Assembly: GCF_019679455.1 (NCBI RefSeq)
Contig: NZ_JAIEZQ010000002.1
Coordinates: 1,302,001 to 1,366,000 of the forward strand
Direction: 5' to 3'
From: Nocardioides jiangsuensis
GTDB taxonomy: Bacteria; Actinomycetota; Actinomycetes; Propionibacteriales; Nocardioidaceae
Length of the DNA: 64,000 bases
This document shows positions 3,126 to 21,334 of this stretch, piece after piece. Under the pieces are notes generated by a model. The model was not told the origin of the DNA. It was given only the letters and a program-made list of their open reading frames with translations, and ran no database searches. The position numbers were made by a program, and so were the translations under genes. Each line of letters opens with the position of its first letter. Positions within the stretch are counted from its first letter, which is position 1.

Positions 3126-3527
3126 ATGACGGGTTGGGTCGGGAACATCGAGGAAGCGACCCTCGGCAACACGAACTTCCGCACGGCGCTGTTCACGGGG
3201 ACGTCGATGCAGCTCACCGTGATGCGTCTGGCCCCGGGAGAGGAGATCGGGGTGGAGATGCACGACCACCGCGACCAGTTCATCCGGGTCGAGCACGGGC
3301 GTGCGCGGGTCACCCTGGGCCCTGAGCGGGACCGGGTCGCGGAGACTCACGACCTCGAGGACGACTGGGTGGTGATCATCCCGGGCGGGACCTGGCACAA
3401 CGTGGTCAACACCGGGGACGGTGACCTCAAGCTCTACTCGCTCTACGCACCGCCGGAGCACCCGGACGGGACGGTGCACGTCACGAAGGCCGACGCCGAC
3501 GCGGCGGAGGCCCAGCACCACGACTGA
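3126..3527 (+). CDS. cupin domain protein
   Basis: A 133-residue single-domain cupin. Motif 1 reads GEEIGVEMHDHRDQFIRVEHG (His-x-His plus Glu, metal-binding type) and motif 2 reads PGGTWHNVVNTG. This fits a small cytoplasmic metal-binding beta-barrel; the family covers isomerases, dioxygenases and sensors, so the reaction cannot be named. GGAGGTGAT (3111-3119) places the start at ATG 3126. It appears monocistronic, between a terminator-like hairpin upstream and a convergent gene downstream. Confidence 0.85.
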   Translation: MTGWVGNIEEATLGNTNFRTALFTGTSMQLTVMRLAPGEEIGVEMHDHRDQFIRVEHGRARVTLGPERDRVAETHDLEDDWVVIIPGGTWHNVVNTGDGDLKLYSLYAPPEHPDGTVHVTKADADAAEAQHHD

Positions 3528-3584
3528 GCCGGTCGCGGGCGGGAGGCCGGCGGCCGCTGGTGTCTCAGGCGGACCGGCGCCGGC

Positions 3585-4115
3585 TCAGCCCGCGGGACAC
3601 TCGGCGGTCCCGGGCTCCAGCTCGGGGTGGATCGGCCCGGACCGGTCGCTCAAGGCCGACACGTCCGCCGTACGCCCGTGCCTGACCGCGAGCACCTCCG
3701 CCACGATCGAGACCGCGATCTCCGCGGGGGTGTTCGCGCCGATGTCGAGCCCGGCGGGACCGTGCACGGAGTCCAGGGCCTCCTCGGGTACGCCGTTCTC
3801 CACCATCCACTCGCGCCGCCGCGCCTGGGTCCGGCGCGAGCCCATGGCACCGATGTACGTCGCCCGGCCGGCCGCGAGTGCGGCCTTGAGTGCGGGTGCG
3901 TCCACGCCGTCGTGGTGACTGAGCACGACCACCGAGTCCGCGTCCTCCAGCCTCTCCTCGGCACCGGCCAGGTCGTCGACGATGACGGGCCGCCACCCGA
4001 GGACCTCGGCGATCGGTTCGAGGGCGGTCGCCACCTCCCCGCTGCCGACGACGAGCAGCGTGTGCTTCTCGCGCGCCGTGGACGGTTGGGCTGTGGTGCG
4101 CGGCTCCTCGGACAT
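3585..4115 (-). CDS. XdhC-type Rossmann domain protein (stand-alone C-terminal domain)
   Basis: A 176-residue protein matching only the C-terminal Rossmann half of XdhC/CoxI. It has the nucleotide-binding VVGSGEVA, the GAMGSRRTQARR signature and the HGPAGLDIGANTPAEIA block. XdhC proteins assist molybdenum-cofactor sulfuration and insertion into xanthine dehydrogenase-type enzymes; the N-terminal XdhC_CoxI domain and its conserved Cys region are absent. No molybdoenzyme gene is present in the window, so the client is unknown. The start at 4115 is favoured over the 40-residue longer frame because GGAGGAG lies 5-11 nt upstream on the minus strand. Confidence 0.82.
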   Translation of the reverse strand: MSEEPRTTAQPSTAREKHTLLVVGSGEVATALEPIAEVLGWRPVIVDDLAGAEERLEDADSVVVLSHHDGVDAPALKAALAAGRATYIGAMGSRRTQARRREWMVENGVPEEALDSVHGPAGLDIGANTPAEIAVSIVAEVLAVRHGRTADVSALSDRSGPIHPELEPGTAECPAG

Positions 4116-4853: not shown

Positions 4854-6877
4854 GGTGGCCGGAAAGTGTCGGTGGTCGGTCGTAGGTTGGGGTGATGGAG
4901 GCGGTGATCGAGGACCAGGACGCGGCGGGGACGCTGGCGTCGTTGGCTCGGTTGCGTCGGGTCCGGGTGGAGGCGGAGCGGGACGTGTTCTTGTTCGTGG
5001 CGCACTTCGCGGACCTGTGCCAGGCCGACTCCCTGCCGAAGGCCGCGGCCCGGGTGGGCGGGGTGTTCACCGGGATGGAGCGGGCGGTGTCCCTGGGTGG
5101 GGTGGGGACGCCGCTGGTGCGGGAGTTCGCCGCCTCGGAGGTGGCCGGGGAGCTGGAGATCTCCACCTACGCCGCCCGGGCGCTGCTGGCCGATGTCCTC
5201 GACGTGCGGCACCGGCTGCCCCGGCTGTGGGCCCGGGTGACCGCGTGTGAGGTGGCGACGTGGGTGGCGCGGAAGGTCGCGGTCGCGACCCGGGACCTGA
5301 CACCGGAGCAGGCGTTGTTCGTCGACGCCGGGGTGGCGGAGTACGCCGACGGGCGGTTGTCGTGGTCGAGGTTCGAGACGGTGCTGGAGGCCCGGGTCGT
5401 GGAGGCGGACCCGGAGGCGGCGGCGGCGCGGGAGGCCGCGGCCGCGGCGGAGCAGTTCGCGAAGGTCGGCCGGTCCAACGAGCATGGCCAGAAGACGTTG
5501 TACGTGAGGTCCACCGCGGCGGTGATCACGAGGATCGACGCCACCTTGGACTACCTGTGCCAGGCGCTGCGGGCGCTCGGGGAGACCGAGAACGCGGACG
5601 AGCTGCGGGTCAAGGCGATGCTGCTGCTCGCCAACCCGCTCCAGGCCGTCGAGCTGCTGACCGCCTACAAGCACGCCCACAGCCGCGACGGCCACACCCG
5701 TTCCGACCCGTCCGGTCCGAGCGCCGCCGATCCCAGCACCGCCAACCCGAGCGCGGCCGGGCCGAGCGCGGCCAGGTCTGAGGCTGGCACCGAGCCAGGC
5801 TGCGATGCGTCGGACGACCACGCACCGGGCTCCGGCGCGGCCCCTGCTGCGGGTGGTCCGGCTCCCGGGCAAGGCACCGGAGCAAGCGGCTCGACGTTCG
5901 GTGGTTCGGACGAGGACGAGGACATGCCGCTGCCGTTCGACGGCCCGGCGTCTGGTCCGGCATCCAGCACCACCCCGGACTCAGGGTCGGACTCGACGTC
6001 TGGGCCGGATGCCGGGCCGCCGAGGCTCGGCGAGCACGACCTGCACCCCGGCGACAACGACGCCGACGACCCACCCGACCCCGGCCAGGGGACAGCTCTG
6101 CCCTGCCCCACCTGCGGGACCGCCGCCTCACGGGCAGCCTCGGCGTCACCGCCAGGCGAGCGCGGGACGCCGCCGACAGGTGACCCGTCACCGTTCACGC
6201 AGCCGGCATGGTTCCGCCCCGTCGACCTGCCCACACCAGCGCCCGGCCGTGAACACGTGGTCGGGGTGGACTGGGCCCGGCTGCTGCCCACGGTGACCCT
6301 GTACGTGCACCTGACCGACCACACCCTGGCCACCGGCCACGGGGTCGCCCGCTGGGAGGGCGAGGGACCGATCTCCGCGCAGTACGTCCGCGACTTCCTC
6401 GGCCCCACCAGCCGCTTCACCATCAAACCGGTGATCGACCTCGCCGGCCAAGCCCCGGTGGACGCCTACGAGATCCCCGACCGGCTCCGCGAGGCGGTGC
6501 ACCTGCGCACCCCGGCCGACGTGTTCCCGTACGCGTCGAACACCAGCCGCCGGATGGACCTCGACCACACCCGGCCCTACCGGCACGGCGGGTCGGCAGC
6601 TCAGACCGGGATGGACAACCTCGGCCCGCTCGGCCGGTTCCACCACCGGGTCCGCACCCACGGCAACTGGGCCGTCGAGCAACCCTTCCCGGGCATCTAC
6701 CTCTGGCGCGCACCCCACGGCAGCATCTACCTCGTCGACCACACCGGCACCCGCAAGGTCACCGACCCCTGGACCAAGTCCACGGACAACGGCGAGTCAC
6801 AGCCGCACGACGGCCTCGCGACGGTCACCCCGCTTGAGACCCACTTCGCCCTGATCATTACCGAAGGCGCAGCCTGA
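4854..6877 (+). repeat. inverted-repeat partner A (DUF222-HNH locus)
   Basis: This stretch, from GGTGGCC just upstream of the coding region to the end of the gene, is closely matched in reverse complement at 56931-58820. Long runs are identical; the main differences lie in the Ser/Pro/Gly-rich linker and near residues 45-60. The pair spans about 50 kb. Confidence 0.85.
4895..6877 (+). CDS. DUF222 domain-containing HNH endonuclease-like protein
   Basis: A 660-residue protein of the DUF222-HNH family that is abundant and multi-copy in actinomycetes. The N-terminal DUF222 region (about 1-265) is helical and rich in Ala and Arg. A low-complexity Ser/Pro/Gly/Asp linker (about 270-440) holds a CPTCG pair. 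The C-terminal HNH module (about 545-600) has DHTRPYRHGG, DNLGPLGRFHHR and a downstream RTHG. DNA cleavage is inferred from the HNH fold; the biological role of the family is not established to my knowledge. TAGGTT (4883-4888) lies 6 nt before ATG 4895, which I prefer to GTG 4892. A second, frameshifted copy lies inverted at 56931-58779. Confidence 0.85.
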   Translation: MEAVIEDQDAAGTLASLARLRRVRVEAERDVFLFVAHFADLCQADSLPKAAARVGGVFTGMERAVSLGGVGTPLVREFAASEVAGELEISTYAARALLADVLDVRHRLPRLWARVTACEVATWVARKVAVATRDLTPEQALFVDAGVAEYADGRLSWSRFETVLEARVVEADPEAAAAREAAAAAEQFAKVGRSNEHGQKTLYVRSTAAVITRIDATLDYLCQALRALGETENADELRVKAMLLLANPLQAVELLTAYKHAHSRDGHTRSDPSGPSAADPSTANPSAAGPSAARSEAGTEPGCDASDDHAPGSGAAPAAGGPAPGQGTGASGSTFGGSDEDEDMPLPFDGPASGPASSTTPDSGSDSTSGPDAGPPRLGEHDLHPGDNDADDPPDPGQGTALPCPTCGTAASRAASASPPGERGTPPTGDPSPFTQPAWFRPVDLPTPAPGREHVVGVDWARLLPTVTLYVHLTDHTLATGHGVARWEGEGPISAQYVRDFLGPTSRFTIKPVIDLAGQAPVDAYEIPDRLREAVHLRTPADVFPYASNTSRRMDLDHTRPYRHGGSAAQTGMDNLGPLGRFHHRVRTHGNWAVEQPFPGIYLWRAPHGSIYLVDHTGTRKVTDPWTKSTDNGESQPHDGLATVTPLETHFALIITEGAA

Positions 6878-7133
6878 CCCAGGCTGACGTCTGTCGGGTC
6901 ACGGCGCCTGCCAGTTCGTCCTGCTGCACGCACTGCCGCGCTTCCATCGACGCCCACACATCGTTGCGCCATCCGTGACGCGATCGGCGCGTCGCCGGCC
7001 GCTCGAACCACGGGCTCTGCCCGCGATCGTCGTAGAGGGCTCACCCGCACGCCCCTCACGACGTCAGTGAGATCAAGCGATCCAGGAAGGTCAGCGGGTC
7101 ACGCTGGAACCGGCTGCGGCGGGACAACGTCCA

Positions 7134-8944: not shown

Positions 8945-10150
8945 GTGGATGCAGGACAGGCCGACGCGGCACGTCAGGCCGGGCTCGAGCAGTACGACGT
9001 CCTCGGGAAGCCGCCCAGCCGTGACCTGCAGGCCCTCGTCGAGCTCGCCGCCCAGGTGTGCGACGTCCCCACCGCCGCGATCAACATGATCACCGCGACC
9101 GAGCAGCACCAGGTCGCCGCCGCGGGCTTCGACCGGTCTATCTGCGCCCGCGAGGACTCCATGTGCGCCGCCGTCCTCGGGGAGCCGCTGCCGGTGGTCG
9201 TGGCCGACGCCAGCGCGGACCCGCGGTTCGCCGACAACCCCTTCGTCACCGGCTCGCTCGGCCAGGTCCGGTTCTACGCCTCGGCGCCGCTGGTCACCCC
9301 GGCCGGCGTCACCGTCGGCCGGCTCTGCGTCTTCGACGACGAGCCGCGGGTGCTGAGCGTCCGCCAGCACGGCGCCCTGCTCGCGCTGGCCGATCGGGTC
9401 CTCGACGTTCTCGAGCTCCGCCTGCGCAGCCACCAGCTCGAGCGTTCCCTCGCCGAGCTCACCGCCGCCCGCGACGAGCTCAAGCGCTCCAACGAGCACC
9501 TCTCGCTCTTCGCCGGCCAGGTCAGCCATGACCTGCGCACGCCGCTGACCGCGATCCTGGCCAACGCCGAGATGCTCTCGATGGAGCCGACCGTCGTCGA
9601 GGACGAGGACCTGGCCTGGATGGTCAGCGGCATCGACCGCGCCGGGCACCGGATGGCCGCCATGCTCGAGGACATCCTGGCCTACGCCCGGGTCGGCGGC
9701 GACCTCCAGAGCCGCGACACCGACCTCGGCGAGGTCGTCGCCGAGGTGCTCTCCGACCTCGCTCCCGTGCTCGACGCCCGCCGGGCCGACGTCACCGTGA
9801 AGGACCTCCCGGTCGTCCACGCCGACACCCACCAGCTCTACTCGGTGCTGCTCAACCTGCTCGCCAACGCGGTGAAGTTCACCGCCGACGACGTCGTACC
9901 GCAGGTGACCGTGGCCGCCGAGCGCCGCGACGACGTCTGGCGGGTCGCGGTCACCGACAACGGGATCGGCGTCGCGGCCGAGCGGCGCGAGGACATGTTC
10001 GTGCTCTTCTCGCGCGCCGACAAGCGGGTCGACGGCAGCGGCATCGGCCTGGCCACCGCCCGCCGGGTCGTCGAGGCGCACGGCGGCCGGATCGGCATGC
10101 AGGCGGCCGACCCCCAGGGCACCACCGTCTGGTTCGAGCTCCCCGCCTGA
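8945..10150 (+). CDS. GAF-domain sensor histidine kinase
   Basis: A 401-residue cytosolic kinase. A GAF domain (about 20-160) binds an unknown ligand and has no transmembrane segment. A coiled linker precedes the HisKA H-box (QVSHDLRTPLTAI) and an HATPase_c domain with N-box NLLANAVKF, DNGIGV and GSGIGLATARRVVEAHGG. Autophosphorylation on the H-box His is expected from the family. There is no response regulator next door, so it is an orphan. GTG 8945 is supported by AGGGGAC about 5 nt upstream. Confidence 0.9.
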   Translation: MDAGQADAARQAGLEQYDVLGKPPSRDLQALVELAAQVCDVPTAAINMITATEQHQVAAAGFDRSICAREDSMCAAVLGEPLPVVVADASADPRFADNPFVTGSLGQVRFYASAPLVTPAGVTVGRLCVFDDEPRVLSVRQHGALLALADRVLDVLELRLRSHQLERSLAELTAARDELKRSNEHLSLFAGQVSHDLRTPLTAILANAEMLSMEPTVVEDEDLAWMVSGIDRAGHRMAAMLEDILAYARVGGDLQSRDTDLGEVVAEVLSDLAPVLDARRADVTVKDLPVVHADTHQLYSVLLNLLANAVKFTADDVVPQVTVAAERRDDVWRVAVTDNGIGVAAERREDMFVLFSRADKRVDGSGIGLATARRVVEAHGGRIGMQAADPQGTTVWFELPA

Positions 10151-10154
10151 GCGG

Positions 10155-11633
10155 TCACCAGCCGCGCGGCGCGATCCCGTTGGTGAGGCGTACGGCGAAG
10201 AAGCCGGTGTTCCCGTCGGTGTACCAGACCTGGCGCCGCTTCATGTCCCACGCGGGCGCGGACATCGCGTGCGCCCCCTCCTTGCCCGGCTTCACCCCGG
10301 GGGCCAGCGGCCGGTTGAAGTAGCCGACCTCCCGCGGGTTGCGCGGGTCCCGGATGTCGAAGATCCGCAGGCCCGACGCGATGAAGCTGCAGGCGACGAG
10401 CTTCGGGTCGACCGCGCGCGGCACGGAGCAGTAGTGGCCGGCGTACCCCTGCACCGGCGACTGCGCGCCCGGGTCGTCCTGCGACGCCCCGCGGCGGGCC
10501 CATGGCTGGTTCACCTGGAGCCGGATGTTCGACACCACACGCGGACGGCGCTCGTCGTCGATGTCGATCAGCCGCGCGGCGCCCACCTCGGCGTCCGGGT
10601 TGTAGAGCTCGGGGGAGTCGATCCGGTAGTTGGCGAACTCGTCGACCTCGAAGAGGTACTCGTGCCCCCTGATCGTGATCGGGATCGGCACCTGGGGGAT
10701 CGACCCGCTGCGCCAGGCCAGCTTGCTGACCACCGGGACCTCCGGGTCGGGCCTGCGGGCCTGGATCTGGCTGACGTCGAGGACCACCAGGCCGCCGTTG
10801 GACAGGACGCCGTCGCCCGGCTCGCCGATCTCCGCGACGTAGAGCCGGTTGCCGTCCCCGCTGACGCGCATGCCGTGGTACACCACGCCCGCCCGCGTCC
10901 AGATCGGCCGGGGGAGCCGCGGGTCGGTGAGGTCGACCGCGGTCAGGGTCTGCCCTGAGGCCGAGGCCACGTAGAACGTCCGGCCGTCGGAGGCGAAGCC
11001 GCTCTCGTGGCCGAGCAGGCCGGCGGGAGTGCTCGACAGCAGCCGCGGCGTCCGGCAGTCGCCCCGGACGTCGTAGACGTCGAGGACGCCGGCGTTGGTG
11101 GCGGCGTTGCCGGTCACCGCGACCAGCAGCCCGCGCCGCTTGTTGAGCAGCAGCGACTCGTGCGGGCTCTGCATCGCCGGGGTCACCAGGTTGGCGGTAC
11201 GGCGCGGACGCGACGGGTCGCTCATGTCGAGCGCGATGACGCCGGTGCCCTCGGCGCCGACGTTGTAGGGCACGTCGACCGGCAGCATCAGCGTCGAGTC
11301 GTAGTAGGCGCAGCGGTGGCCGGCGCGGTCGACGTACCGCAGCACCTTGAACCCGCCGCTCTGGCCGTGGTGCCCGACCAGCCTGGCGTTGCAGGTGTAC
11401 CCCTTCTGTGCGCGCCCGGTCCGGTAGTCGCCGGCGGGCACCCGCCCCTGGATCGAGGTCTCCGGTCGCGACCCCGGACCGCAGTCCGCCCGGGGCACGG
11501 CTGTCAGCGGCACGTCCCCCTGGGCGCTCGACGTGGTGGCCAGCAGCCCTGCCCCGAGCGCGGCGACGCCGACGAGGGCGACGAGGCGCAGCAGCAGGGC
11601 GCGACGGTTCGGGTGCTCGGGTGCGCGAGTCAT
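10155..11633 (-). CDS. secreted LVIVD-repeat-like (beta-propeller) protein
   Basis: A 492-residue exported protein with an N-terminal signal containing Arg-Arg (NRRALLLRL, possibly Tat) and an AQG-type cleavage region. The body has repeated segments of the type VIALDMSDPSRPRR, LTAVDLTDPRLPRP, LVVLDVSQI and LRIFDIRDPRNPRE, the pattern of LVIVD/propeller blades. A few Cys residues probably form disulfides outside the cell. AAGGGGAC precedes the ATG. It lies 74 nt downstream of the M50 protease on the same strand and could be read from the same transcript; a functional link to that pair is only suggested by position. Confidence 0.75.
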   Translation of the reverse strand: MTRAPEHPNRRALLLRLVALVGVAALGAGLLATTSSAQGDVPLTAVPRADCGPGSRPETSIQGRVPAGDYRTGRAQKGYTCNARLVGHHGQSGGFKVLRYVDRAGHRCAYYDSTLMLPVDVPYNVGAEGTGVIALDMSDPSRPRRTANLVTPAMQSPHESLLLNKRRGLLVAVTGNAATNAGVLDVYDVRGDCRTPRLLSSTPAGLLGHESGFASDGRTFYVASASGQTLTAVDLTDPRLPRPIWTRAGVVYHGMRVSGDGNRLYVAEIGEPGDGVLSNGGLVVLDVSQIQARRPDPEVPVVSKLAWRSGSIPQVPIPITIRGHEYLFEVDEFANYRIDSPELYNPDAEVGAARLIDIDDERRPRVVSNIRLQVNQPWARRGASQDDPGAQSPVQGYAGHYCSVPRAVDPKLVACSFIASGLRIFDIRDPRNPREVGYFNRPLAPGVKPGKEGAHAMSAPAWDMKRRQVWYTDGNTGFFAVRLTNGIAPRGW

Positions 11634-11707: not shown

Positions 11708-14167
11708 CTACGGTGACGTGGAGGTCGTCGGGGTGGGCTCCGCGGTGGGGGTCGGCTCGGGCTCCGCCGCCGGCTCGGTGGCCTCCGCGGTGGGCGTCGG
11801 CTCCGGCTCCTCGGCCGGGGTCGGCTCGGTGGTCGGCTCGCTGTCCGTGGTGGCGCTCGGCTCCCCGGCGGTCGGCTCGGAGTCCGGGTCGGAGTCCGTC
11901 CCACCCGTCGTCGTCCCGTCTCCCGACGCCGTCGGGCTCGCGCCGGCCCCGGGGCCTGCCGAAGGGCCGGCGGTGCCGCTCGGCGTCGGTGACGCCGAGG
12001 CGGAGGCCTCGGTCCGGCTCGGGACGAGCGGGCCCTGGTCGCGCTCGATGATCGCGATGATCTGCTCCTCGTACGACGTCAGCCGCGCCTGGATCTCGCC
12101 GAGGGACAGCCCCTCGAGGTCCGCGCCGAACGCCGCGATCTCCTGCCACAGCGCGGTGAGCTCCTCCATCGCGAGGTCGCTGAGCGGGCCCTCGATGGTG
12201 AGCACGAGCTGGCGGGCCAGGGCCGCGGTGACGCAGGAGATGCAGTTGTAGTTGACCGCGGCCGCGAGGTTCTGCGGCACGATCGTGTCGCTCTGGCCGA
12301 CGACGAGCACCACCTGGAAGGCGATCGCGACGGTGGTGCAGTCGCGGCAGCTCGCCAGCGCGTAGGCCGAGTTGACGTTGTCGGTGGTGTCGCCCTCCGC
12401 CCAGACGAGCGCGAACGCCACGTCGTAGAGCGTGGAGCCGTCCTCGGTGTTGACCGCGAGCGCCTGGTTGTCCCCCTCACCGGGGGCGGGCGGCCGGTTG
12501 AACGGGAAGACCCAGGTCTGGTCGTCGGCGGTGGCGACGTCGCCGGCCCCGGGGGCGCCGCCGGTCCCGGTGCCGGTGCCGCCCGTGGTGACGGTCTCGG
12601 ACGCGGTGGCCGGGCCTCCTTCGCGGGGCACCAGCACCACGGCCAGCGCGGGCTCGTCGGCGGTGGGCAGCGGCTGGCTCGCCGGCCACAGCGTCGCCGA
12701 GCGGGAGACCACGCCGGGGGCGAGCCCGGCCGGCGCGGAGGCCAGGGGGAGCACGTCGGTGAGGGTGCCGCGCTCGTAGGAGCGGATCGGGCGGTAGCGG
12801 TCCTCCTCGGGCCACCAGGCCCAGGCCAGCGCCGCGACGATGGCCAACGCCACGACGACGGCGAGGGCACGCTGCGCGGGCTTGCCCTCGGTGGCCGCCC
12901 AGACGCGGGTGGTGGTGCGCCGTACCAGCCGGACCAGGATGTAGGCGGTGCCGAAGACGGGCAGGCCGATCGCCACGATCGACAGCAGCCGGGTCGCCAT
13001 CTCGAGCACGTCGCCGGACCCGAAGGCGGTCCGGAACGTCGCCCACTGGTTGCCGATGCTGTCCCAGGCGGTGGCGGCCACGCGCGGGAAAGCGACCACC
13101 ATCACGACCATGCTGGCCACGAGCAGCGGCACCACGAGCAGCACCCACACGCTGACCACCGTGCGGGCCCAGGGCTTGAGCAGCTTGGTCTCGGGCTTGT
13201 GCCAGTTCTGCGGGAGGAGCCCGAGCAGGATCGGCTTGATGTGGTGGTACAGGTCGGGGACGCCGGTGACGTCGGCGAGCACGTGGTAGCCGTCGAAGCG
13301 GACCAGGGGAGCGAGCTGCCGGATCATCTGCAGCACCTGGGTGACGATGACGAGCAGCAGGGCGTCCCACTGGTTCACCCACCACAGGCCGAACATCGCG
13401 ACGGCGACGATCGCGTTGAAGTAGAGGCCGCCGAGGTCGGTGCGGACCCGTCCGCCGCGGCCGAGGCGGTAGCTGTCGGTGACGTCGGTGTAGAACGCCG
13501 GCCACACCAGGTACAGGCCCATGCCCATGGCGCCCGGGGTGGAGCCGCCGTACCGCGCCGCCGAGGCGTGCCCGAACTCGTGGAAGCCGGCGGAGAGCAC
13601 GGTGACCGCGAAGACCACGAGCAGCAGCCCCGGCTGGTAGATCGCCTCGTGCGCGGCGGAGGCGAGGCCCTTCTCGAAGAGGACCCACCAGCAGATGACG
13701 AGGAACCCCGCGAGCACGAGCGCCACCACAAGGGGGTTGAACAGCGCGGCGAACGGGGCGGTGATCCGGCGGGTCGCGGCGGGGTCCGAGACGACGTACT
13801 TGAACCGCAGGCCGAGCAGCGGGTTCGCCTTCTTCACCGCCGGCTGGGTGCCGTCGGCGAGGCGGAGCAGGCCGAGCGGGAGCAGCTGCTGCTGCACGAG
13901 CGTGGCCACGTTCTCGGCCGAGACGGTCCGGTCGAAGCGGTCGCTGACGTCGGCTGCGATATCGGCGTGGGTACGGCGGCCGTCGACCGCCGCAAGGACG
14001 AGGTAGAGCAGCCGGGTGAGCTGGATGACCTGGCCGTCCGCACGGCGCACGAGAGCCGGGGGAGTCCGGTAGCCGGACCCCCGCATCTCCCCGATCAGCT
14101 CGACCCCGTCGGCCAGCGCCGGTGCCGCCGGCTCGGGAGGAGCCGACGGCCCGGTGGTCACGCTCAC
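11708..14167 (-). CDS. PqqD-like / M50 membrane zinc metalloprotease with Cys-pair C-terminal domain
   Basis: An 819-residue multi-domain membrane protein. Residues about 38-108 look like a PqqD-type winged-helix peptide-binding domain. About six or seven membrane segments follow (150-450), with the M50 zinc motif HEFGH at 196-200 and a second-ligand-type segment FDGYHVLAD at 291-299. After the last helix, an extracellular domain (about 455-715) holds two Cys pairs, CRDC (607-610) and CISC (642-645). A 100-residue Pro/Thr/Glu/Ser tail ends the protein. M50 enzymes cut substrates in or near the membrane. The GTG start lies 9 nt after the stop of the Ala-rich repeat protein, implying coupled expression and suggesting that protein as substrate or cargo. 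The architecture recurs in actinobacteria, but I know of no characterised member. Confidence 0.88.
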   Translation of the reverse strand: MSVTTGPSAPPEPAAPALADGVELIGEMRGSGYRTPPALVRRADGQVIQLTRLLYLVLAAVDGRRTHADIAADVSDRFDRTVSAENVATLVQQQLLPLGLLRLADGTQPAVKKANPLLGLRFKYVVSDPAATRRITAPFAALFNPLVVALVLAGFLVICWWVLFEKGLASAAHEAIYQPGLLLVVFAVTVLSAGFHEFGHASAARYGGSTPGAMGMGLYLVWPAFYTDVTDSYRLGRGGRVRTDLGGLYFNAIVAVAMFGLWWVNQWDALLLVIVTQVLQMIRQLAPLVRFDGYHVLADVTGVPDLYHHIKPILLGLLPQNWHKPETKLLKPWARTVVSVWVLLVVPLLVASMVVMVVAFPRVAATAWDSIGNQWATFRTAFGSGDVLEMATRLLSIVAIGLPVFGTAYILVRLVRRTTTRVWAATEGKPAQRALAVVVALAIVAALAWAWWPEEDRYRPIRSYERGTLTDVLPLASAPAGLAPGVVSRSATLWPASQPLPTADEPALAVVLVPREGGPATASETVTTGGTGTGTGGAPGAGDVATADDQTWVFPFNRPPAPGEGDNQALAVNTEDGSTLYDVAFALVWAEGDTTDNVNSAYALASCRDCTTVAIAFQVVLVVGQSDTIVPQNLAAAVNYNCISCVTAALARQLVLTIEGPLSDLAMEELTALWQEIAAFGADLEGLSLGEIQARLTSYEEQIIAIIERDQGPLVPSRTEASASASPTPSGTAGPSAGPGAGASPTASGDGTTTGGTDSDPDSEPTAGEPSATTDSEPTTEPTPAEEPEPTPTAEATEPAAEPEPTPTAEPTPTTSTSP

Positions 14168-14176
14168 CGGTGGGCG

Positions 14177-14914
14177 TTACTGCTGGATGTCGGAGGTCTG
14201 CTCGGCGTTGGCCTCGGCTGCCCCCTCGATCGACTGGTTGATGACGGCGTCCTGCTGCGCGACGGCGACCGCCTCGGAGCCGACCGAGCCCACGTTGGCG
14301 GACACGGCGGCGTCGATCGGGGCGGCGACGTTGGCGTTCGCGGCCACGGCACCGTCGATCGGGGCGGCGATGTCGGCGTCGGCGGCGACGTTCACGTCGA
14401 CGTTGAGCAGGTCCCCGTCGAGCGCGCCCGCGGCCGTGGTGGCGCCCTCGGTGACCCCGTCGGTGACCCCGCCGACCGTGCCGTCGGTGGTGCCCTCGGT
14501 GACCCCGTCCACGGTGCCGCCGAGGTCGGTGCCCGACGTGGTGCCGTCGGCGGTCCCGTCCGTGGTGCCGGAGCCGTCGTCGATGGTGTCGTTGCTCTGG
14601 TCGATGCCGGAGTCCTGGGTGGCGTTCGCGGTGGCGTCGGCCTCGATGCCCTGGTTGATGCTGACGTTCTGGTCGGCCAGCGACTGGGCGGTCGAGTCGA
14701 ACGACAGGATGTTGGCGCCCACGGCGGCGTCGATCGGCGCGGCGACGTTGGCGTTGGCGGCGATGGCCAGGTCGATCGGCGCGGCGGCGTCGATGGCGAG
14801 ATCCAGGTCGGCGTTCAGGTCGAGCAGCGACACGACCTCCTTGTCAGGAAGGGCGGTTGCTCCCTCGGCCGCCAGCTCGTCTGCGCTCAGCGGTGCCTTC
14901 TCCACGTCGCTCAT
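14177..14914 (-). CDS. Ala-rich protein with duplicated 63-residue module, candidate M50 protease substrate
   Basis: A 245-residue protein with no signal peptide and no Cys. The N-terminal 34 residues (charged, ending ALPDKEVVSLLDLN) resemble a leader segment. Two modules, 44-106 and 183-245, align with a constant offset of 139 residues and no gaps: each has AAPID, then AANANVAAPIDAAV, then INQ-IE and a terminal Gln. They are separated by an Asp/Gly/Thr linker (107-165) with repeated GTTDGT and VTDGVTEG units. A GAGGGGG ribosome site precedes ATG 14914. It is co-directional with and immediately upstream of the PqqD-M50 gene. A processed or exported repeat protein is my inference; the product family is not recognised. 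Confidence 0.8.
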   Translation of the reverse strand: MSDVEKAPLSADELAAEGATALPDKEVVSLLDLNADLDLAIDAAAPIDLAIAANANVAAPIDAAVGANILSFDSTAQSLADQNVSINQGIEADATANATQDSGIDQSNDTIDDGSGTTDGTADGTTSGTDLGGTVDGVTEGTTDGTVGGVTDGVTEGATTAAGALDGDLLNVDVNVAADADIAAPIDGAVAANANVAAPIDAAVSANVGSVGSEAVAVAQQDAVINQSIEGAAEANAEQTSDIQQ

Positions 14915-16385: not shown

Positions 16386-17954
16386 CTAGAGTCGCGAGCC
16401 GATGGCGGCGAAGGCGGTGCACATGACGAGGAGGCCGAGGATCAGCGGCCAGGTGAACCGGAGCCACTGGTCGTAGCGGACCCTGGCCAGGGCCAGGCCA
16501 CCCATGACGACCGCGGAGGTCGGGGTGATCAGGTTCACCACGCCGGACGCCGACTGGTAGGCCGTGACCACCATGGCGCGCGGGACGTCGGCGAAGTCGC
16601 CGAGCGGCGCGAGGATCGGCATGGCGACCGCGGCGTGGCCCGAGGTGGACGGCACGAGGAACGCCAGCGGCAGGTTGATCAGGAACATCAGGCCCCCGAA
16701 CACGGCCGCGGAGGTGTTGCTCACCGCGTTCTCCATCGAGTGCAGGACCGTGTCGGTGATCTGCGAGTTGTTCATGATCACGGTGATGCCGCGCGCCAGG
16801 ACGATGATCAGCCCGACCCCGACGAAGTCACCGGCGCCCCGCACGAGCGTGTCGGTCAGCCCCTTCTCGCCCAGGCCGCCGATCAGACCCACCACGATCG
16901 CCATCACGATGAACAGCGCGGCCAGCTCGGGGAAGTACCAGTCCAGCTGCCAGGGGTAGCTGTCGGCGTTCGGCCCGTTGATCACCTGCGCCCAGGGGAC
17001 GATGGCGAAGATCATGAAGGCGAACGTGAAGCCGACGATGGCGAGCACGCTCTTCTGCTTCCCGGTGAGGCTCGGTGGCACCACGACCAGGTCGGGGTGC
17101 TTCTTCGCGAACTCGCCCGTCTGTTCCGCGCCGCGGGCCGCGAGGAGCCTGTCCTCGTCGGTGAGCCCGACGAGGGACGTCGATGGGTCGGCCTTCACCT
17201 TCTTGGCGTAGCGCAGCACGAACAGGATGCTGAGCGGCACCAGCACGAGGTACATCAGGAACCGGAAGGCGATGCCGTCGCCGAGCGAGATGTCGGCGGC
17301 GTCCGAGGCGACGCCGGTGGCGAAGGGGTTGACCGTGGAGGCGAGCACACCGACCCCGGCCCCGATCATGATGGTGGCCGCCGCGACCATCCGGTCGTAG
17401 CCGAGGCTGAGCATGAGCGGTACGACGAGCGCGTAGAAGCCCAGCGTCTCCTCGGCCATGCCCTCGGTGGTCCCGCCGATGGAGAACAGCACCATCAGCA
17501 TGACGATCACCAGCGCACCGCGGTTGCCGAAGCGCTGCGCGACGTGGGCGACGCCGTTGTCGATGGCGCCGGTCTGCATCGACATGGTGATGAAGATGCC
17601 GATGGCGACGACGAACAGGAAGACGCCGGCCGCGCCGAACAGCTCTCCGGCCTCGTAGGGGCCGATGAACCCGGTGTCGCCGCTCTGGACGCCGTACAGG
17701 CCGTTGACCGGGCTCAGGAACAGCTGCATCAGCCGGTCGGTGAACGACAGGCCGGCGTCGACCGCGTGGTAGCTGCCCGGGATCGGGCGTCCGTCCGGGG
17801 TCGTCCGGTAGCTGCCCGTGGGGATCACGAACGCCAGCAGCCACACGAACACCGTGACCGCGAAGAGCACGGTGAACGCGCTCGGGAAGGTGAACTTCCT
17901 CTTCTTGTCGCCGGCCGGTCGCCCGCCGGCCGGTCGCGCTTCTGCGGTGGCCAT
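16386..17954 (-). CDS. YfcC family transporter, probable arginine/ornithine exchanger of the arc locus
   Basis: A 522-residue polytopic membrane protein with about 12 hydrophobic segments and a short basic cytosolic N-terminus (KKRKF). It belongs to the YfcC/DcuC-like group: [21 protein letters not shown] and [13 protein letters not shown] are visible. YfcC-type proteins often accompany arginine deiminase genes and take the place of ArcD, exchanging arginine for ornithine; I infer that role from its divergence from arcA. GGAGGG precedes the ATG. The 177-bp gap to arcA holds two DevR-like boxes (18026-18061). Confidence 0.82.
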
Positions 17955-18025
17955 GTGTCATCCCTCCGCGGGCAAGCAGGAACCCCCGTTCCCCCCAGCG
18001 TGACAGCGGGCCCGGTGGGGCGCTC

Positions 18026-18061
18026 CGGCCCTTGGACCCCTCGCGTGAGGTCCTTCGGCCC
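18026..18061 (+). promoter_or_regulatory. tandem DevR/DosR-like boxes in the yfcC-arcA promoter
   Basis: CGGCCCTTGGACCC (18026-18039) and AGGTCCTTCGGCCC (18048-18061) share the core GGnCCTTnGnCCC and are spaced 22 bp apart, two helical turns. The core closely resembles the DosR box GGGACTTnnGnCCC of mycobacteria and the motifs at 42296 and 46112. Binding by the DevR-like protein of this window is inferred. Confidence 0.5.
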
Positions 18062-18131
18062 TGAACGGACACGGGGAGGAGGAGCAGCCTGGGAACGTCG
18101 GGGGCACTTTCGTAGACGACAAGGGGCCGCC

Positions 18132-19355
18132 ATGAGCCTGCACGTGGACTCCGAGGTCGGACGGCTCCGGCAGGTGGTCCTGCACCGGCCGGACCTGGAG
18201 CTGAAGCGGCTCACGCCGAGCAACAAGGACGAGTACCTCTTCGACGACGTGCTCTGGGTCAAGCGGGCCAAGCAGGAGCACGACGCCTTCGCCGAGTCCC
18301 TGCGGGACCTCGGTGTCCGGGTGCACATGCTCGAGCAGCTGCTCCGGGAGACCGTGGCGATCCCCGAGGCCAGGCACTACATCCTGGACGCCGCCCTCGA
18401 CGAGCTGGTGTACGGGCCGATGGCCCTCGACGCGCTGTTCAGCATGTTCTCCGCGCTCGACGACGAGTCGCTGGTGAAGTACCTGGTCGGCGGGATCACC
18501 AAGCGCGAGCTGCTCCAGTACGTCGAGGAGCCGAAGTCGGTCGTCGTCCAGGCCCTCGACCCGGAGGACATGCTGCTGCCGCCGCTGCCCAACCACATGT
18601 TCACCCGCGACACCTCCGCCTGGATCTACGACGGCGTCTCGATCAACGCGATGCGCAAGCGGGCGCGGGAGCGCGAGACCATCCACTACGAGGCGATCTA
18701 CCGCTGGCACCCGTTGTTCGCGGAGGCCGGCTTCCCCGTGTGGTCCGACGGCAGGGTGAACGGGATGGCGACCACCGAGGGCGGCGACATCCACGTGCTC
18801 GGCCGGGGGGCGGTCATGGTGGGGATGAGCGAGCGGACCACGCCCCAGGGCATCGAGCGGCTCGCGCTGCGGCTCTTCGCGAAGGGGTCGGCCCGGCGGA
18901 TCGTCGCCCTGGCGATGCCGAAGAAGCGTGCGTTCATGCACCTCGACACGGTGATGAGCATGGTCACCGAGGACACGTTCACCAAGTACGCCGGGCTCGG
19001 GATGCTGCCGTCGTACACGATCGAGCCCGGTGACACCGAGAAGGAGCTGCGGGTCACCGCACACCCCCCGCAGGACATGCACACGGCGATCGCCGACGCG
19101 CTCGGCCTGGACTCGATCAAGGTGCTCACCCCGACCCAGGACGTGCACGCCGCCGAGCGTGAGCAGTGGGACGACGGCTGCAACGTGCTCGCGGTCAGCC
19201 CAGGGGTGGTCGTGGCCTACGAGCGGAACGTCACCACGAACACGTTCCTGCGCAAGGAGGGCGTCGAGGTGGTGACCATCCAGGGCAGCGAGCTCGGACG
19301 CGGTCGCGGCGGACCTCGCTGCATGAGCTGCCCCCTCGAGCGTGAGGGGATCTGA
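18132..19355 (+). CDS. arcA: arginine deiminase
   Basis: A 407-residue enzyme hydrolysing L-arginine to citrulline and ammonia, the first step of the arginine deiminase pathway. Signatures include the N-terminal [31 protein letters not shown], the HLDTVMSMV active-site His/Asp segment and the C-terminal GPRCMSCPL with catalytic Cys397. It is full length for the family. AAGGGG (18121-18126) lies about 5 nt before ATG 18132; the long open frame upstream is antisense to yfcC and is not coding. arcB starts 1 nt after its stop. Confidence 0.96.
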
Positions 19356-19356
19356 C

Positions 19357-20358
19357 ATGCCCTTCAACCTGCGGAACCGCAGCTTCGTCAAGGAGGTCGA
19401 CTTCACGCCCAAGGAGTGGAAGTTCCTGCTCGACCTCGCCGCCGAGCTGAAGCTGGCCAGGTACGCCGGCTCGGAGCAGCCGCGGCTGACCCGCAAGAAC
19501 ATCGCGCTGATCTTCGAGAAGACCTCGACCCGCACCCGGTGCGCGTTCGAGGTGGCCGCCTTCGACCAGGGGGCGCGGGTCACCTACCTCGACCCCAGCG
19601 GGTCCCAGATCGGGCACAAGGAGTCGATGGAGGACACCGCGCGGGTGCTCGGCCGGATGTACGACGGGATCCAGTACCGCGGCTCGGCGCAGGAGAAGGT
19701 GGAGACGCTGGCCCGGTACGCCGGCGTCCCGGTCTGGAACGGGCTGACCGACGAGTGGCACCCCACCCAGTCGCTCTGCGACATGCTGACCATGCGCGAG
19801 CACTCGTACAAGCACGACGAGGAGATCGCCTTCGCCTACCTCGGCGACGCCCGCAACAACGTGGGCAACTCGCTGCTCGTCGCCGGCGCGATGATGGGCA
19901 TGGACGTGCGGGTCGTCGCGCCCCGGGAGCAGTGGAACCACGAGCCCGTCGTCAAGCAGGCTCACGACATCGCGCTCGAGACGGGTGCCCGGATCACCCA
20001 GACCGACGACGTCGCGCGGGGGGTGCAGGGCGTCGACTTCGTCTACACCGACGTGTGGGTGTCGATGGGGGAGCCGACGGAGGTGTGGGAAGAGCGGATC
20101 CACCTGCTCCGGCCCTACCAGGTGAACACCCACCTGCTGGACATGACCGGGAACCCGCAGGTGAGGTTCATGCACTGTCTGCCCGGGTTCCACGACCGGC
20201 ACACGAGGGTCGGCGAGGAGCTGTTCCAGAAGACGGGCATGACCGCGCTCGAGGTCACCGACGAGGTGTTCGAGTCCAAGCACTCCATCGTCTTCGACCA
20301 GGCGGAGAACCGGATGCACACCATCAAGGCCGTGCTCGTCGCGACGCTCGGCGGCTGA
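19357..20358 (+). CDS. arcB: ornithine carbamoyltransferase, catabolic
   Basis: A 333-residue transcarbamylase that would convert citrulline and phosphate to ornithine and carbamoyl phosphate. Visible motifs are the carbamoyl-phosphate loop [19 protein letters not shown] and the ornithine-side HCLPGFHD. Position between arcA and arcC argues for the catabolic role. ATG 19357 has GAGGGGA just upstream inside the arcA 3' end; the in-frame GTG 19342 would overlap arcA and lacks support. Confidence 0.96.
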
Positions 20359-20359
20359 G

Positions 20360-21334
20360 GTGCGCCTCGTCATCGCGCTCGGGGGGAACGCGCTGCTGCA
20401 ACGGGGCGAGAAGCCCGACAGCGACGTCCAGGAGGCGAACGTCGCGCGTGCGGTCGCGGCGCTGGCGCCGCTGGCCGAGACGCACGAGATCGTGATCACC
20501 CACGGCAACGGTCCGCAGGTCGGGGTGCTGGCGCTGCAGAGCGCGTCCGACCCGCACCTCACCACGCCGTACCCCTTCGACGTCCTGGGTGCCCAGACCC
20601 AGGGGATGATCGGCTACTGGCTGCTCCAGGCCATGCAGAACGCGCTGCCCGGTCGGCAGGTGGCCGCGATCATCAACCAGACCCTGGTCGAGGCCAACGA
20701 CCCGGCCTTCGGGAACCCGACGAAGTTCGTGGGCGAGGTGTACGACGAGAGCGAGGCACGAGAGCTCGCCGCCGTGCGCGGGTGGGTGGTGCGGCAGGAC
20801 GGCACGTCCTGGCGCCGCGTGGTCGGGTCGCCCAAGCCGCAGCGTGTGGTGGAGACCAGGCTGATCCGGCTGCTGCTGAACAGCGGCGCGATCGTGGTCT
20901 GTGCGGGCGGCGGAGGCGTGCCGGTGATCCGCAACGAGCAGGGCCACCTCGAAGGGGTGGAGGCGGTGGTCGACAAGGACCTCACCAGCTCGGTCCTCGC
21001 GGAGGCGCTCGAGGCGGACGCGCTGCTCGTGCTCACCGACGTCCCGCACGTCGTCCGGGGCTTCGGTACGCCGGACGCCGAGCCGATCCTGCGGGCCACC
21101 CCCGCGGCCCTCCAGCGGGAGTCGTTCCCGGCGGGGTCCATGGGACCGAAGGTGGACGCGGTCTGCCGCTTCGTCGAGGTGACCGGGGACATGGCCGCCA
21201 TCGGACGGCTCGAGGACGCGGAGGCGATCGTCGCCGGCACGGCCGGCACCATCGTCACGCCGGCCGGCCACTACGGCGGACCGGACGACCTGAGCCCCAG
21301 CCGCCCGGTGCCTAGCCGAGCGCGCCCGCTGTAG
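20360..21334 (+). CDS. arcC: carbamate kinase
   Basis: A 324-residue amino-acid-kinase-fold enzyme that makes ATP from carbamoyl phosphate and ADP, the energy-yielding step of the pathway. Motifs are the N-terminal ALGGNALLQRGE, THGNGPQVG, CAGGGGVPV, VDKDLTSSVLA and GSMGPKVDA. GTG 20360 begins 1 nt after the arcB stop, so translation is coupled. The 3' end overlaps the convergent azlD gene by 23 bp. Like its partners it is probably controlled from the divergent promoter upstream of arcA. Confidence 0.96.
   Translation: MRLVIALGGNALLQRGEKPDSDVQEANVARAVAALAPLAETHEIVITHGNGPQVGVLALQSASDPHLTTPYPFDVLGAQTQGMIGYWLLQAMQNALPGRQVAAIINQTLVEANDPAFGNPTKFVGEVYDESEARELAAVRGWVVRQDGTSWRRVVGSPKPQRVVETRLIRLLLNSGAIVVCAGGGGVPVIRNEQGHLEGVEAVVDKDLTSSVLAEALEADALLVLTDVPHVVRGFGTPDAEPILRATPAALQRESFPAGSMGPKVDAVCRFVEVTGDMAAIGRLEDAEAIVAGTAGTIVTPAGHYGGPDDLSPSRPVPSRARPL

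Follow-up and report, generated by a model that had tools for sequence, protein, structure and literature searches.

A conserved pair of a two-module protein and an RRE/PqqD-like M50 protease in soil actinobacteria

In daptide biosynthesis, the leader of a helical peptide is removed by MpaP, an RRE-dependent intramembrane peptidase (PMC10036551). In epipeptide systems, the M50 core of EpeP has been proposed to cleave a ribosomal peptide and also to export it (PMC10885120). The chaplins of Streptomyces occur in one-domain and two-domain forms, and the two-domain forms have a spacer (PMC7766987).

We analyzed a window of 64,000 nt from Nocardioides jiangsuensis (GCF_019679455.1, NZ_JAIEZQ010000002.1, positions 1,302,001-1,366,000). 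On its minus strand are two adjoining genes, one for a two-module protein (which we will call the substrate) and one for an RRE/PqqD-like M50 protease (Table 1). Like the daptide proteases MpaP and DapP, the window's protease has a putative PqqD/RRE-like domain ahead of the M50 core, and its gene lies beside that of a leader-bearing precursor (PMC10036551). But daptide precursors are short, with the leader motif ELExMEAP and a C-terminal threonine, while the window's substrate has the leader motif ALPDKEVxS and ends in DIQQ. Also, no CxxC exodomain (outer domain) has been described for daptide proteases, and the window's protease has one. By score it is not a daptide protease: it matches NCBIfam's daptide_HExxH (NF041824) with 102.5 bits, against an equivalog cut-off of 300. 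The epipeptide protease (YydH/LiaK/EpeP) shares the M50 core, and an export role has been proposed for EpeP (PMC10885120). However, the epipeptide protease lacks the exodomain, no epimerase gene recurs beside our pair, and the score against NCBIfam's epipeptide model (NF058609) is 40.7 bits, compared to a cut-off of 225.

The substrate family resembles the chaplins in being actinobacterial and in having single- and double-domain forms, with a spacer in the latter (PMC7766987). But chaplins are Sec-secreted and have the chaplin domain, mostly paired cysteines, and (in the long forms) a sortase signal. None of these is found in the window's protein, which has no cysteine, no signal peptide, and no match in Pfam. 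Overall, this type of protease is already known, but the family of the substrate, the exodomain, and a pairing that lacks tailoring enzymes seem to be new: none of the three turned up in the open-access papers searched or in Pfam, NCBIfam, and the PDB.

Table 1. Features of the pair, with their positions in the window.
Feature	Position	Strand	Basis
Two-module precursor (substrate) protein, 245 aa	14177..14914	-	ORF; relatives in 80/80 loci; no Pfam/NCBIfam family
Leader, residues 1-34, motif ALPDKEVxS (residues 21-29)	14813..14914	-	91% identity over residues 22-29; LPxR variant in split systems
Module 1, residues 44-106	14597..14785	-	40/63 identity to module 2; period-2 hydrophobicity
Linker, residues 107-182	14369..14596	-	107-163 variable; conserved approach to module 2 from about 164
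Module 2, residues 183-245	14180..14368	-	Repeat of module 1; period-2 hydrophobicity
819-aa protein with RRE/PqqD-like, M50 site-2 protease, and exodomain parts	11708..14167	-	ORF; NCBIfam daptide_HExxH match
RRE/PqqD-like winged-helix domain, residues 20-112	13832..14110	-	Pfam PqqD in 9/24 homologs, best E 3e-4
HEFGH zinc-binding motif, residues 196-200	13568..13582	-	H, E, G, H invariant in 82/82
RFDGY, second site-2-protease motif, residues 290-294	13286..13300	-	DGY invariant in 82/82
Last predicted transmembrane segment, residues 434-452	12812..12868	-	Hydropathy
Exodomain, residues 546-712, four Cys (607, 610, 642, 645)	12032..12532	-	Cys invariant in 82/82
Core-like unit of exodomain, residues 625-653	12209..12295	-	Ungapped profile match to precursor core; same hhalign placement

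The pair is conserved across actinobacterial orders

A preliminary description of this DNA had reported a 245-residue reading frame at 14177-14914 whose two 63-residue modules align without gaps at an offset of 139, followed 9 nt downstream by an 819-residue M50 protein with HEFGH, CRDC, and CISC. Our analysis reproduced the modules, with 40 identities in 63 positions, and found the protease reading frame (its GTG start is 9 nt past the TAA of the substrate) with all three motifs, CRDC at residues 607-610 and CISC at 642-645. The translated substrate likewise has a leader-like N terminus and no cysteine or signal peptide, as had been described.

We scanned 84,980 species genomes with a profile of the protease, which gave 275 M50 relatives, and examined the neighbors of the best 80. 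A two-module protein is encoded immediately upstream, on the same strand, in 80/80 of these. The 80 include relatives from Arthrobacter, Pseudarthrobacter, Phycicoccus, Nocardioides, Kribbella, Blastococcus, Geodermatophilus, Mycolicibacterium, Lentzea, Planosporangium, Nitriliruptorales, and others. Another contig of the same genome has a second, diverged pair, in which the M50 protein shares 48% identity and the two-module protein has 488 aa.

We also used two samples of genomes that were drawn independently of the presence of the pair. Among 61 genomes from the window's family, with the exodomain as the protease query, 7 have both genes, 53 have neither, and 1 has only the protease. (That genome is 77% complete and the gene is cut by the end of the contig.) Two additional substrate matches in this sample (E about 8e-4) are weak and repetitive. 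In a sample of 149 genomes from the phylum, the partner adjoins every protease-fused exodomain. The co-occurrence of the M50 gene with an upstream partner, which had been proposed as something to look for, is seen in the 80 loci, in the second pair, and in both samples. The pair is real and conserved, and it is a two-gene module carried by many soil actinobacteria.

Could the two genes be chance neighbors, and the modules an artifact of low complexity? The substrate is repetitive and 22% alanine, which would fit. But the 80/80 adjacency over several orders and the joint absence from 53/61 family genomes contradict this idea, and we give it almost no weight. The substrate's local self-alignment score is 192, and the maximum in 300 shuffles of the same composition is 65.

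A third gene is shared by 30 loci at most, and the genes that recur resemble the synteny of Arthrobacter-type genomes. In particular, no tailoring gene (decarboxylase, aminotransferase, or methyltransferase) recurs beside the pair across genera, and nothing of the daptide clusters' set, which also includes an ABC transporter, does so. This agrees with the earlier remark that radical SAM, lanthipeptide, and ABC transporter genes are missing nearby: no transporter or tailoring gene is conserved beside the pair across the loci examined. In the window, the neighbors of the pair include a uridine-kinase-like gene, a histidine kinase, a glutamate-cysteine ligase, and an arginine-deiminase-type cluster, and the immediate ones are unrelated to the daptide enzymes. 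(The cluster, at 16386-21334, resembles the arginine deiminase pathway and comprises a DcuC-family carrier, an arginine-deiminase-like ORF, an ornithine carbamoyltransferase, and a carbamate-kinase-like gene.) The next gene downstream, at 10155-11633 and likewise on the minus strand, encodes a large protein that by eye looks secreted and repeat- or beta-propeller-like, with no Pfam match. We rejected it as a third part of the system because no other locus examined has a relative of this gene beside the pair.

We found no relative in the phage and viral collections that we searched. Matches to the M50 core from plasmids of E. coli and Citrobacter were set aside, as they are annotated as HlyD-type and only 17% of the query was matched. 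Mirror-tree correlations lacked a control gene and are not counted as evidence.

A leader and two strand-like modules around a variable linker

Across 50 homologs, the mean identity to the window's substrate is 91% for residues 22-29 of the leader (LPDKEVxS), 71-72% for the modules, and 20% for the linker (residues 107-163), which puts the leader motif first in conservation. Conservation of the substrate across orders is about 60-70%, and just 1/81 homologs contains a cysteine. We found no sequence match for the substrate above the cut-offs in Pfam, NCBIfam, or the PDB.

In both modules, hydrophobicity alternates residue by residue. The spectral power at 180 degrees gives z = 7.3 for residues 33-106 and z = 6.8 for residues 170-245. 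Over 75 homologs, which share kinship and are not 75 independent tests, the mean z is 6.4 for module 1 and 6.2 for module 2, and every homolog is above 3. The linkers of these 75 homologs have no period-2 signal, and no signal is seen at helical angles. As read from the sequences, the modules' pattern is a strand signature. In the AlphaFold model, which has low confidence (mean pLDDT of 53), modules 1 and 2 share a set of six strands. We limit the beta claim to the substrate because the exodomain alone shows no period-2 pattern.

In a subfamily of substrates that includes the second pair from the same genome, the linker contains DUF3659/beta-flower repeats. (Examples, with the two modules on either side, are at 9228-10694 of locus L008 and in L118 and L119.) Hence the middle of the substrate seems to be a slot whose content varies while the modules that flank it stay fixed. 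Residue-by-residue alternation is also typical of beta-barrels, and a linker that varies and may hold a beta-flower domain could be the functional part that a secreted pore or adhesin, instead of a fiber, displays. But the substrate has no sequence match in the PDB, its low-confidence model has no fold match, and the repeat unit is short and is also found as single precursors of 65-74 amino acids (see below). We consider a pore or adhesin improbable.

Some relatives have the parts on separate proteins. First, on two Streptomyces plasmids, the M50 relative lies behind short peptides with the leaders LLPGREALG or LLPERAVLS, and on one of them the outer domain is a separate protein with a signal-peptide-like N terminus. 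Second, two loci from elsewhere in the phylum (L111 and L113) encode three precursors each, of about 65-74 residues, with a leader such as GEELPERxxMSL and one core each (NANVAxPINAAVAANVLSDxS...). The M50 protein of these loci lacks the outer domain, which is instead a protein of its own whose N terminus resembles a signal peptide. Third, in Arthrobacter sp. 9AX (L064), an extra, free-standing exodomain protein is encoded (6286-7080, plus strand) just upstream of a normal pair. The split forms and the free outer domain indicate a single system with three components: one or more leader peptides, the RRE-protease, and the outer domain. By the same comparison of sequences, the window's version has the RRE-protease fused to the outer domain and a precursor that holds two cores. 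Taken one by one, the short precursors lack the period-2 signal, apart from L113b (z of 3.3).

Two other loci have related components. On one Streptomyces plasmid (L091), two peptides with LPERAVLSA leaders (3428-3724 and 5347-5655) have glycine-rich cores and cysteine and are encoded near an RRE-M50 gene; these may be another class of product from the same machine. At L110, an exodomain-like ORF (6131-6775, plus strand) lies just after an ABC-permease-like gene, and the 14 kb around it contain no M50 gene. It has no clear start and no signal peptide.

The several short precursors in distant relatives, along with a protease of the daptide/epipeptide kind, would suit a daptide-like RiPP or bacteriocin: a membrane-active or antimicrobial peptide or polypeptide, perhaps modified by enzymes encoded elsewhere, with the exodomain as an immunity or docking part. 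However, no tailoring gene recurs beside the pair, and the modules are strand-like while daptides are helical (PMC10036551). Also, the substrate's conservation across orders is atypical for bacteriocin cores, which are typically not so conserved. We view this explanation as unlikely, if less so than a pore or adhesin.

The protease and its outer domain

The preliminary description assigned the protease a PqqD-like N terminus. On the window's protein this assignment is weak (Pfam's PqqD model gives 14.9 bits, with a cut-off of 23.4), and the region has no PDB profile match. But homologs support it, and so does the match to the daptide profile, which runs from residue 37 to 306 and takes in this region. 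Pfam's Peptidase_M50 model gives E = 0.36 (10.6 bits). The protein has the features of an M50 site-2 protease: HExxH, a downstream DG motif, and multiple membrane spans (at least six hydrophobic segments by hydropathy). A basic stretch precedes the last hydrophobic segment, so by the positive-inside rule, the remainder of the protein is placed outside. That is, the C-terminal part would lie outside the cell.

The exodomain has no match above the cut-offs to any Pfam, NCBIfam, or PDB sequence family. It is encoded separately in L090, L111, L113, and L064, and in relatives it is predicted to be a secreted-type protein from its signal-peptide-like N terminus. It also resembles the substrate: the exodomain segment QSDTIVPQNLAAAVNYNCISCVTAALARQ aligns without gaps to the substrate segment NANVAAPIDAAVSANVGSVGSEAVAVAQQ. 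This likeness was spotted by eye and was scored against shuffles afterwards. The composition-corrected profile score is 11.95; the shuffles average 5.5-5.7 and peak at 10.3 and 9.0, and 0/800 reach 11.95. Without prompting, hhalign picks the same placement (P = 0.009 and 0.015), with a probability of only 3-5%. The likeness could reflect common descent or mimicry. We do not claim an internal repeat in the exodomain (CxxC unit 2 versus 3), which scored 13.6 compared to 14.8 for the best shuffle. The AlphaFold models of the substrate and the exodomain have low confidence, and Foldseek searches with them gave noise or nothing. Because the models are so uncertain, we make no claim about folds.

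Site-2 proteases classically act in signaling. Regulated intramembrane proteolysis, in which the CxxC exodomain would sense the outside and the module protein would be cut as an intracellular signaling or stress regulator, would be in line with that role and with a substrate that lacks a signal peptide. But the substrate has no match to DNA-binding, sigma, or anti-sigma families in Pfam or NCBIfam, no regulator gene recurs nearby, and strand-like modules and multiple short precursors suit a product better than a regulator. We consider regulation as improbable as a pore or adhesin.

A possible route to a beta-assembled surface product

In our best reading, the pair is a dedicated RRE/site-2-protease module for leader processing, similar to MpaP but free of tailoring enzymes, that serves a secreted and probably beta-assembling protein. 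We think it fairly probable that the protease recognizes and cuts the leader and that the product is extracytoplasmic. On the cytoplasmic side, the RRE/PqqD-like domain would recognize the leader (ALPDKEVxS) of the 245-aa precursor, and the site-2-protease membrane core would then remove it. Because of the homology to MpaP, binding by the RRE and cutting by the M50 core are the most likely fate of the leader. The two-module, beta-rich part would end up outside the cell. Since there is no signal peptide and no transporter, we suggest that the protease also assists the product's exit, a role that has been put forward for EpeP (PMC10885120).

Outside, the cysteine-containing, core-like unit of the exodomain may bind or template the product, which would probably assemble into a beta-structured surface layer or fiber. 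The exodomain would then be a tether or a minor subunit, as CsgB is to CsgA or as long chaplins are to short ones. Curli combine a secreted strand-repeat subunit (CsgA) with a related minor subunit that is held at the surface (CsgB). The pair resembles this arrangement, but it has no CsgG-type outer-membrane secretion, its sequence is different, and its leader is proposed to be processed by the protease. Given the tethered or co-secreted relative of the product (the logic of curli and chaplins) and the strand pattern, a beta-assembled surface product is our leading guess. Taken alone, a fiber or surface layer as the end use is tentative. A shade more doubtful is that this is an undescribed route to beta-fibrous surface structures (functional amyloid) in Gram-positives, with subunits freed by an RRE/site-2 protease and nucleated on a core-like domain that this protease carries or that is secreted next to it.

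The pairing is observed directly in the genomes; we infer binding and cleavage of the leader, passage to the outside, and assembly from the sequences. In favor of the best reading are the 80/80 adjacency, the joint presence and absence, the leader motif, the invariant HExxH and DGY, the match to the daptide profile, the split form with LPER leaders, the free exodomain in L064, the period-2 modules, and the likeness of the exodomain to the core. Against it are the sub-cut-off RRE match, the low-confidence models, the 3-5% probability from hhalign, and the absence of the period-2 pattern from the exodomain and from all but one of the short precursors. Another point against it is that the substrate lacks a classical transmembrane segment, the usual target of site-2 proteases.

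Geodermatophilus obscurus is reported to have strong functional amyloid outside its cells (PMC3035280, citing Jordal et al. 2009). Two other Geodermatophilus genomes (L071 and L078) carry the pair. We know of no gene that has been identified as being behind the amyloid of G. obscurus, and the pair, as seen in those other genomes, is a candidate for this phenotype. More broadly, RRE/site-2 proteases have so far been known, to our knowledge, from small modified peptides. Here, a machine of this kind has a modular protein of 200-500 residues as its partner across many actinobacterial orders, with no tailoring enzymes in the pairing, and the protease's outer domain resembles its own substrate. If it is true that the protease exports and assembles its substrate, this would be a new principle of secretion and assembly.
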